Of a stretch of 40,896 bases of DNA, positions 3,341 through 4,098 are shown piece after piece. This DNA is from Candidatus Roizmanbacteria bacterium (GTDB lineage Bacteria > Patescibacteriota > Microgenomatia > UBA1406 > GWC2-37-13): assembly GCA_013335175.1 (NCBI GenBank), contig JAAXWC010000012.1:1-40896 (forward strand), written 5' to 3'. Made by a program: the position numbers and the translations under genes. Numbering within the stretch: the stretch's first letter is position 1; every line of letters begins with the position of its first letter. A model generated the notes under the pieces. The model was not told the DNA's origin, did not search any database, and saw only the letters and a program-made list of their open reading frames with translations.

Positions 3341-3358
3341 TGCCCGGTCGTCTAACGG
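3341..3358 (+). repeat. tRNA-Gln 5' fragment, copy 1
   Basis: The 18 nt TGCCCGGTCGTCTAACGG are identical to the first 18 nt of the intact tRNA-Gln at 4025. After that the sequence does not fold as tRNA. Two perfect hairpins follow: 3359-3376 (6-bp stem) and 3377-3394 (7-bp stem). It marks the left edge of unit 1. Confidence 0.9.
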
Positions 3359-3394
3359 CGGTGTCATCCAACACCGTCCTGTCGAATGACAGGA
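3359..3394 (+). other. Two leader hairpins of unit 1
   Basis: CGGTGT/ACACCG around a 6-nt loop, then TCCTGTC/GACAGGA around GAAT. They sit between the tRNA fragment and the promoter of the first GIY-YIG gene. The same order (hairpin, hairpin, GACAGGA-like or AGACAGGAG sequence, -10 box) recurs in unit 2, although the stem sequences differ. Confidence 0.7.
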
Positions 3395-3429
3395 TAGGAG
3401 AGTAAAACTGTGTTATCATAGACCTGCAA

Positions 3430-3708
3430 ATGTTTTATTATGTTTACATTCTATTGTTACAGAATGGAAAATTTTACACGGGCAGTTCACACGATTTAAT
3501 ACAGCGAATTGCAAGCCATAGCGCAGGTAAAGTTATCTCAACAAAACCTTACCGACCTATAAAACTTGTTCATTACGAAGCATATTTAGAAAAAGCCGAT
3601 GCGTTACGAAGAGAAAAATATCTAAAAACAACAGAAGGTAAGTATTTTTTGAGACAGCAAATTAAGGTGCTTTTTGAAAAAATAAAAAATAAATGCCCGG
3701 TCGTCTAA
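3430..3708 (+). CDS. GIY-YIG nuclease, unit 1
   Basis: 92 aa protein that is one GIY-YIG domain of the UPF0213/YhbQ-like kind. VYI (5-7) and YTG (16-18) form the GIY and YIG strands. R26 and H30 lie on the following helix, and E50 in VHYEA is the likely metal-binding Glu, so a DNA-cleaving active site looks intact. TATCAT lies at 3414-3419. The last codons, giving C-P-V-V-stop, are the first 15 nt of a copied tRNA-Gln 5' end, so the stop codon is the TAA of the D-arm. The second GIY-YIG protein is homologous but clearly diverged. A homing or mobile-element role is inferred from the tRNA arrangement, not shown. Confidence 0.88.
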   Translation: MFYYVYILLLQNGKFYTGSSHDLIQRIASHSAGKVISTKPYRPIKLVHYEAYLEKADALRREKYLKTTEGKYFLRQQIKVLFEKIKNKCPVV

Positions 3709-3711
3709 CGG
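3694..3711 (+). repeat. tRNA-Gln 5' fragment, copy 2
   Basis: Second exact copy of the first 18 nt of tRNA-Gln; identity continues for three more bases (to 3714). The first GIY-YIG frame ends inside it. It is followed by a GTCGCC/GGCGAC hairpin (3714-3730) and a CCGCC/GGCGG hairpin (3731-3745), not by an anticodon arm, so it cannot be a working tRNA. Confidence 0.9.
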
Positions 3712-3713
3712 TA

Positions 3714-3745
3714 GTCGCCTCATCGGCGACCCGCCGACGAGGCGG
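3714..3745 (+). other. Two leader hairpins of unit 2
   Basis: Adjacent stem-loops: GTCGCC/GGCGAC with a 5-nt loop, then CCGCC/GGCGG with loop GACGA. AGACAGGAG and the -10 box TATAAT (3755-3760) follow, 6 nt before the ATG of the second nuclease. The layout matches unit 1. Confidence 0.7.
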
Positions 3746-3766
3746 AGACAGGAGTATAATAGACAC

Positions 3767-4039
3767 ATGTTTTATACTTATGTGCTCTATAGCCTCAAGA
3801 GTAAGAGGTTATATATAGGTTCAACAGCGGACTTAAAACAACGTTTTGACGAGCATAATAAAGGCATAGGAGGAAGTTATACAAGTAAAAATATACCATT
3901 TAAACTTGTTCACTATGAAGCATTTTTAAGTAAAAAGGATGCAATTAAGCAAGAACGATTTTATAAAACTGGATACGGAAGAGAAGTATTGAAAGAAAAA
4001 ATAAAGGAAAGTTTAGATATCATTTGCCCGGTCGTCTAA
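3767..4039 (+). CDS. GIY-YIG nuclease, unit 2
   Basis: 90 aa single-domain GIY-YIG protein: TYVLYSL at 4-10, YIG at 16-18, R26, H30 and E51 in VHYEA. It shares the KLVHYEA core and overall plan with the unit 1 protein but differs at many positions, so this is not a recent duplication. TATAAT at 3755-3760 is 6 nt before the ATG, fitting a leaderless message. The frame runs 15 nt into the intact tRNA-Gln and ends at the TAA of its D-arm, giving the same C-P-V-V tail as unit 1. RNase P cutting at the tRNA 5' end would remove the stop codon from the nuclease message. Confidence 0.88.
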   Translation: MFYTYVLYSLKSKRLYIGSTADLKQRFDEHNKGIGGSYTSKNIPFKLVHYEAFLSKKDAIKQERFYKTGYGREVLKEKIKESLDIICPVV

Positions 4040-4098
4040 CGGTAGGACAGCAGACTCTGAATCTGCTTATTGGGGTTCGAATCCCTACTGGGCAGCCA
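4025..4098 (+). tRNA. tRNA-Gln (anticodon CTG)
   Basis: Full cloverleaf: acceptor TGCCCGG (4025-4031) with CTGGGCA (4088-4094), D-stem GTCT/GGAC, anticodon stem GCAGA/TCTGC with loop CTCTGAA and anticodon CTG at 4057-4059, T-arm TGGGG-TTCGAAT-CCCTA, discriminator G and encoded CCA. The weak U1-A72 pair and G73 fit bacterial tRNA-Gln. Its 5' 18 nt are duplicated at 3341 and 3694, and its first 15 nt are also the end of the second GIY-YIG gene. Expression must come from promoters at or before the nuclease genes, or from the tRNA's old promoter upstream of 3341. Confidence 0.95.

Follow-up and report, generated by a model that had tools for sequence, protein, structure and literature searches.

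Small GIY-YIG nuclease units in the tRNA genes of Candidatus Roizmanbacteria and other CPR bacteria as probable minimal homing elements supplying a rescue tRNA

A locus in the genome of a Candidatus Roizmanbacteria bacterium (assembly GCA_013335175.1) raises the question of why the beginning of a single tRNA gene should stand there three times, interspersed with genes for very small nucleases. The window, by which we mean the whole analysed stretch of 40,896 nucleotides (contig JAAXWC010000012.1, forward strand), carries the 18-nt 5' end of tRNA-Gln, TGCCCGGTCGTCTAACGG, in exact copies at 3341-3358, 3694-3711 and 4025-4042, which alternate with two GIY-YIG genes. The copies are spaced by 353 and 331 nt, the identity of the copy at 3694 with that at 4025 extends to 3714 (21 nt), and only the last copy continues as a full tRNA-Gln(CTG). 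The three 18-nt copies, their spacing, the two interspersed genes and the single full tRNA had been stated in a preliminary description made from the letters of the window, and were confirmed on the sequence. The exact 18-mer occurs three times in the whole 1.45-Mb genome, always at this locus, and its reversed control does not occur at all, which rules out chance. Both ORFs run into the next tRNA copy and take their TAA stop from its nt 13-15. GC-rich hairpins, which the preliminary description had omitted, separate each partial copy from its ORF (CGGTGTcatccaACACCG and TCCTGTCgaatGACAGGA in unit 1, TCGCCTCATCGGCGACCCGCCGACGAGGCGG in unit 2) and are followed by sequence resembling the remainder of the tRNA 5' half. 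The features of the locus are as follows.

3341..3358, + strand: tRNA-Gln 5' remnant of unit 1 (nt 1-18), with exact 18-nt identity to 4025-4042
3359..3394, + strand: double hairpin of unit 1 (CGGTGTcatccaACACCG, TCCTGTCgaatGACAGGA) in the D loop of the remnant, read from the sequence
3395..3429, + strand: what appears to be the decayed remainder of the tRNA-Gln 5' half (TAGGAGAGTAAAACTG.. against TAGGACAGCAGACTCTG..), together with the region where ORF1 starts, from an alignment whose by-eye likeness is weak alone
3430..3708, + strand: GIY-YIG nuclease gene 1, 92 aa, PF01541 match with E=1.2e-13, in the tRNA-Ser-element clade (99/98, AU test)
3694..3714, + strand: tRNA-Gln 5' remnant of unit 2 (nt 1-21), with exact identity to 4025-4045
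3715..3745, + strand: palindrome of unit 2 (TCGCCTCATCGGCGACCCGCCGACGAGGCGG), almost identical to one that the tRNA-Gln element in genome G044 has at this point of the D loop
3746..3766, + strand: apparent decayed continuation of the tRNA 5' half (AGACAGGAGTATAATAGAC against GGACAGCAGACTCTGAATC), from the sequence, by eye
3767..4039, + strand: GIY-YIG nuclease gene 2, 90 aa, PF01541 match with E=1.1e-16, in the tRNA-Gln-element clade (98/83 with G044), protein model with pLDDT 87
4025..4098, + strand: functional tRNA-Gln(CTG), found by ARAGORN and scoring 58.3 bits with Rfam RF00005

The remnant at 3341..3358 presumably occupies the original position of the tRNA 5' end, behind the presumed tRNA promoter; this placement is based on congeners in which, at other loci, the promoter flank directly precedes an intact tRNA. 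The 331-353-nt units of the window hold only the GIY-YIG ORF and no site-specific recombinase gene, and the 5' end of the tRNA is rebuilt by the element. Tyrosine-integrase elements also use tRNA genes as integration sites and restore one end of the gene with element sequence; the units described here differ from them in having no recombinase, in measuring about 350 nt and in rebuilding the 5' end.

The same architecture is found at two further tRNA genes of this genome, which had likewise escaped the preliminary description. Four of the 11 GIY-YIG genes of the genome are of the window type, at tRNA-Gln (two), tRNA-Lys(TTT) and tRNA-Pro(GGG), and the genes of all these units are A1-type. An exact tRNA 5' copy precedes the ORF at tRNA-Lys (21 nt) and at tRNA-Pro (51 nt), and at both the TAG stop of the ORF is U8-A9-G10 of the tRNA. 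The left copy at tRNA-Pro (locus L005, G000:C32:7315-7389) still scores 38.4 bits as a tRNA, its acceptor stem being kept and its T arm replaced by CCCCGAGGACTCGGGG; remnants such as this one may be counted as tRNA genes by annotation pipelines. The remaining GIY-YIG genes of the genome (genes of about 100 aa, a uvrC-like gene and a contig-end fragment) show no tRNA linkage. Loci L008-L011 hold genes for ~101-116 aa, among them three near-copies, flanked by short palindromic repeats of the CCGGAATGACG or GTCATCC types and not by tRNAs.

A profile of the four proteins of this genome found matches in 135 of 144 related genomes. Among 122 distinct related genes from 144 CPR genomes, 69 had the start of a same-strand tRNA at most 120 nt past the stop codon, with most isotypes represented, a rate which is biased, since the 122 genes were ranked by likeness to tRNA-linked seeds, and which does not hold for all GIY-YIG genes; the chance expectation for such linkage is about 0.2% (from 48 tRNAs in 1.45 Mb). 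An exact tRNA 5' copy lay upstream of 47 of the 122 genes. The stop codon overlapped or lay inside the tRNA in 32 of the 69 linked genes (12 at nt 8-10 and 11 at nt 13-15), so that the search of other tRNA genes proposed in the preliminary description did recover the same nucleases there, with ORF tail and stop often supplied by tRNA sequence. Linkage was seen in 52 of 67 CPR or unnamed MAGs, as against one of 13 named non-CPR relatives, and the hosts in the named collection include Roizman-, Gottesman-, Magasanik-, Moran- and Doudnabacteria and others. Carriage by phages or plasmids was considered and rejected, as only one IMG/VR viral contig and one weak phage match were found, and no plasmid matches. 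Three further layouts were observed. A contig end (L059, G004:C2:1-4646) consists of 13 identical 357-nt units of GIY-YIG gene and tRNA-Ser 5' end, which is probably an assembly artefact, a loop over a real tandem, and was left out of the analysis. Two tRNA-Phe loci (L054 in G006 and L064 in G020) have a mirror layout: the GIY-YIG ORF directly follows the working tRNA, and downstream of the ORF comes a tRNA 3' remnant that contains a hairpin of the CCGAATCGG type. A separate GIY-YIG clade (L083, L095, L110, L113 and L117) lies ~80-90 nt downstream of an intact tRNA-Ser, with a conserved AACGTAAGAAATT..-type hairpin before the gene and no tRNA remnants.

Whether units have moved into these genes was addressed by searching one genus, sampled as one genome per species, with reconstructed empty sites as query. 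The tRNA-Asp gene is filled in G020 and uninterrupted in G046 and G058, which have the same promoter flank; tRNA-Met is filled in G041 and uninterrupted in G063 and G071. At filled loci the promoter is still found ahead of the left remnant, with the working tRNA further downstream. The tRNA-Gln(CTG) gene with the 5' end seen in the window carries two units in this genome and a single one in G138, and is free of units in ten others, so that all three states which the preliminary description had proposed to look for exist. At the tRNA-Ser(CGA) locus between recF and a cupin gene the tRNA is intact in G048, and units are present in G002 (with a split tRNA), G055 and G015; on the left the tRNA adjoins recF in G048, G055 and G015, and on the right it adjoins the cupin gene in G048 and G002. 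Element-free target alleles, as known for homing elements, are thus present among relatives. The preliminary description had allowed for two other outcomes, namely that close relatives would all share the same two units and that such genes would have no association with tRNA fragments elsewhere; instead, empty sites occur in congeners (Asp, Met) and GIY-YIG genes of the window type are tRNA-associated at other loci. Upstream of the apparently empty tRNA-Gln(TTG) of G085 (L016) there is a decayed sequence resembling a GIY-YIG C-terminus (KTGFGRN..), which suggests the loss of a unit.

These sites also bear on a passive origin, in which tRNA genes would have been duplicated in tandem around a drifting nuclease gene with no targeted mobility. 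The units are arranged head to tail, direct tRNA repeats are able to recombine, and phages offer a precedent in the amplification of tRNA-segB via microhomology (PMC13096335). Against this, empty sites keep the promoter directly ahead of the tRNA, the same build recurs at many isotypes and in many families with clade-specific palindromes, and the two window units do not form a sister pair. A carefully built tree of 45 proteins joins unit 2 to the tRNA-Gln elements from G044 and G138 and places unit 1 in a clade of tRNA-Ser elements (99/98), and a constraint joining the two window units in one clade was rejected (p-AU 0.0008). We therefore regard passive duplication as very improbable. The position of the two units in different clades indicates that this tRNA-Gln was invaded by two lineages, one of which had probably switched over from tRNA-Ser; of the two histories offered in the preliminary description, a site hit twice and an old duplication, the first agrees with the trees and the second does not.

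The nuclease tree follows tRNA isotype and not host. On a tree of 115 proteins, tRNA isotype required 36 changes against a mean of 51.8 after shuffling (none of 200 shuffles was as low), and host family 49 changes against 50.5 shuffled. Fidelity to the isotype is imperfect, as the minimum would have been 16 changes. The Val clade of nucleases spans three host families, and the pattern as a whole is one of host-independent spread with target fidelity. Where dS could be measured, dN/dS was 0.08-0.21, which is purifying selection and indicates that the nuclease proteins are functional. Such strong selection on the protein, together with a conserved leader structure and the likely co-transcription of nuclease and tRNA, would also be expected of an operon of tRNA and nuclease kept by selection because it benefits the host, whether in regulation, in tRNA quality control or as a toxin with a tRNA antidote. 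We consider such a benefit improbable, given that the units are patchy among congeners, occupy many isotypes and follow isotype instead of host in the tree, that two unrelated units sit on one tRNA, and that broken tRNA remnants lie alongside.

The leader, that is the sequence between the left tRNA copy and the ORF, has a GC content of 0.56 as against 0.32 in the ORF, and hairpins (z<-2) form in 66% of leaders as against 10% of promoter flanks. The tRNA copy continues on the far side of the palindrome in 30 of 73 loci, mostly at or near the next nucleotide, which makes the palindrome an insertion inside an arm of a longer 5' remnant. After a D-arm palindrome this remnant often extends to about nt 24-60, and the ORF junction is thus deeper, often near the anticodon arm. 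For this reason the reading of the 18-nt copy as the mark of a cut in the D loop, given in the preliminary description, could not be retained, and a plain target duplication of 18-21 nt through a D-loop cut was rejected as too simple. All five family-A leaders start after TAGCTC at nt 13, despite belonging to tRNAs for Asp, His, Lys and Val, and many family B and C leaders start after GG or GGTA in the D loop. Across elements at different isotypes, leader similarity tracks nuclease similarity (Mantel rho 0.42; 0 of 500 permutations). The family-A leader, compared over four isotypes, has 25 pairs of which 121 of 125 cells are canonical and 8 pairs show compensatory changes, and the tRNA-Ser elements L050 and L070 have an identical leader despite a dS of 0.73. 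The co-variation with the nuclease and the compensatory changes mark the palindrome as a selected, heritable part of the element. REP-like palindromes scattered at random were also considered and rejected, as most copies of the TTGCGGGCAGG core checked in eight genomes lay in tRNA remnants and few elsewhere. When folding was used to ask whether the palindrome keeps the remnant from capturing the 3' half of the working tRNA, capture was predicted at all loci, with or without the palindrome, the energy model favouring large multiloops.

A palindrome inherited in this way could itself be the moving part, with the GIY-YIG protein, on this view a transposase-like or structure-specific nuclease, inserting its cognate palindrome into the arms of tRNAs; gene-bearing units would then be autonomous, and remnants with only a palindrome would be non-autonomous and REP- or MITE-like. 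Palindrome types do descend together with the nuclease clade and are maintained through compensatory changes, the junctions are fixed within families (always TAGCTC for A, GG or GGTA for many of B and C), the same palindromes occur in the GIY-less remnants L169, L173, L263 and L265, and the nearest folds are the branch-cutting Slx1 and UPF0213. We nevertheless think this unlikely, because the palindromes are found mostly in remnants beside a working tRNA, so that insertion alone would kill the tRNA, because the tRNA duplication requires an additional event, and because few palindromes lie elsewhere. Palindromes are present, yet no Y1 HUH transposase of the IS200/IS605 or REP-RAYT kind accompanies them, the GIY-YIG gene being the sole ORF.

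The remnants also reveal what some units bring with them. A clear 3' remnant lies downstream of the working tRNA in 15 of 107 loci, that of tRNA-Lys in our own genome included, which means that the split resident encloses an entire tRNA of its own isotype at no fewer than 15 loci. Such arrangements are seen at the own tRNA-Lys, at tRNA-Gln of G044, tRNA-Ser of G002, tRNA-Thr of G125 and others. The unit at tRNA-Ser of G002 lies between the outer acceptor strands, GGAGAGG and CCTCTCC, and its inner tRNA-Ser is identical at 85 of 85 positions to the tRNA-Ser of another genus. In the tRNA-Gln locus of G044 the left remnant has the acceptor TCCGAGA of its congener G007, and the working tRNA has TGCCCGA. 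At tRNA-Ser of G002 and tRNA-Thr of G125 the outer remnants pair with each other and not with the inner tRNA. The proposal that small units based on tRNA genes leave behind a complete tRNA with a rebuilt 5' end, made in the preliminary description, is supported and applies at the window, where 5' remnants only were seen; as a general limit it fails, in that some units appear to carry a complete tRNA as cargo. Nesting is also seen at a locus of G125 that has no nuclease gene (L263, G125:C4, around 21264). There an outer tRNA-Thr, with the palindrome in its D loop, has in place of its anticodon arm a complete tRNA-Thr on an AT-rich TTTAAAATTT/AAATTTTAAA stem, and the predicted fold is that of two nested cloverleaves. 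Palindrome-bearing remnants with no GIY-YIG gene were also observed at tRNA-Met of G070 (L169) and at tRNA-Thr of G102 (L173/L267) and of G330 (L265), in each case followed by a working tRNA for the same amino acid but of different sequence; L265 has repeated tRNA 5' pieces with hairpins as well.

The model of the unit 2 protein is a single GIY-YIG domain. UPF0213 and Slx1, which among solved structures are closest in both sequence and fold, were the nearest Foldseek matches, followed by the catalytic domain of I-TevI. Y16, G18, R26, H30, E51 and E63 are invariant in 30 sequences, and Y3 and Y5 are above 90%; the conserved residues (Tyr, YxG, Arg, Glu) are those which we take to be the counterparts of the I-TevI catalytic residues, and domain and residues together place the proteins in the GIY-YIG superfamily. 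Slx1 acts together with Slx4 on branched DNA, and we know of no description of UPF0213/Slx1 nucleases as tRNA-linked mobile genes. Classical homing enzymes have a DNA-recognition domain, whereas these proteins of 78-92 aa are the catalytic domain only, with no separate recognition domain; the choice of isotype may therefore rest on the catalytic domain itself, on DNA structure or on recombination homology. The anticodon arm is the usual site of tRNA introns, GIY-YIG is a common family of intron-encoded nucleases, and the ORF junction lies near the anticodon arm in several loci, all of which recalls a degenerate self-splicing or archaeal-type tRNA intron with its nuclease. With a complete tRNA downstream, however, splicing is unnecessary, and the space in a unit suffices for a hairpin and an ORF only. 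As a scan of 20 loci (55 kb) found no group I or II intron and no ribozyme core, an intron origin is extremely improbable.

The unit is probably a minimal selfish homing element of tRNA genes that supplies a rescue tRNA, with cleavage as a postulated step; sequence comparisons argue strongly for insertion and for target fidelity. It would consist of a lineage-specific palindrome that ends up in an arm, usually the D arm, of the resident tRNA, a gene of about 80-92 codons for a catalytic-domain-only GIY-YIG nuclease, and tRNA sequence at the right end, as a minimum the 5' part and in some loci an entire tRNA of matching isotype. In homing of this kind, a tRNA gene lacking the element would be cut by the nuclease and would receive the unit when repaired from a copy that has it. 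Recombination would be confined to the tRNA gene and would break the resident tRNA, so that a 5' remnant stays beside the former promoter and, in some cases, a 3' remnant lies further downstream; a right crossover in the inner tRNA would leave the 5' remnant only, one in the outer tRNA a 3' remnant too. Survival of the cell would depend on the working tRNA that the element restores or brings in, an arrangement reminiscent of a naturally occurring cleave-and-rescue drive. Expression of the nuclease is probably driven by the tRNA promoter, its frame often ending on a stop supplied by the tRNA (U8-A9-G10 or nt 13-15), and the palindrome may serve in immunity of the remnant, in recognition or in expression. 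We also put forward, as a possibility that we hold only tentatively, that these units form a new class of mobile element in which a catalytic-only GIY-YIG nuclease and its cognate palindrome break tRNA arms and carry a complete replacement tRNA, giving tRNAs nested in tRNAs; this would be a natural cleave-and-rescue drive at nearly every isotype across CPR, with the palindrome-only forms as non-autonomous derivatives.

Two known systems are closest in logic to these units. SegB of phages T4 and T6 is a free-standing GIY-YIG homing endonuclease in tRNA arrays, a larger phage protein for which the accessible part of the report describes no tRNA 5' remnants, cognate palindrome or split resident tRNA (PMC13096335); unlike SegB, the CPR units are chromosomal, are linked to isotype and often have the end of their ORF within the tRNA. 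The mobile ORFs of fungal mitochondria carry a foreign gene end (Allomyces atp6; Glomus atp6, atp9, cox2 and nad3) and similarly combine an endonuclease element in an essential gene with a supplied replacement part and a native part left as remnant (PMC3630166). They concern the 3' end of mitochondrial protein genes (PMC3630166), whereas the CPR units concern bacterial tRNA genes, mostly leave a 5' remnant, and have in addition a palindrome in a tRNA arm and sometimes a complete replacement tRNA. Within CPR, the insertions in rRNA genes are mostly group-I-intron-like with LAGLIDADG homing endonucleases, GIY-YIG being sparse there and judged to be outside homing, and tRNA goes unmentioned in the text; they share with our units the bacterial group and the target-specific spread into an RNA gene (PMC11270868). 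Synthetic Cleave and Rescue drives join a nuclease against an essential gene to a working copy on the same element, but these are engineered, CRISPR-based and made for sexual populations, so that the likeness is one of logic only (PMC7951863). Homing logic is thus already known, and it is the palindrome and the nested tRNA that may set the CPR units further apart. A search of openly accessible literature found no account of tRNA-linked GIY-YIG units in CPR, and their presence at nearly every tRNA type is apparently undescribed so far.

CPR bacteria are a very large group with few cultured members, and in their reduced genomes tRNA genes, which are essential, are mostly single-copy. It is these genes that a selfish unit of ~350 nt appears to break and replace repeatedly. 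If this is true, it would explain the abundance of small GIY-YIG genes in CPR genomes and would represent a natural cut-and-rescue strategy at RNA genes. The units would also be a source of very small nucleases that target diverse tRNA genes, and on them one could study how an enzyme with no DNA-recognition domain locates one tRNA isotype; tRNA genes themselves would be exchangeable between lineages as cargo.
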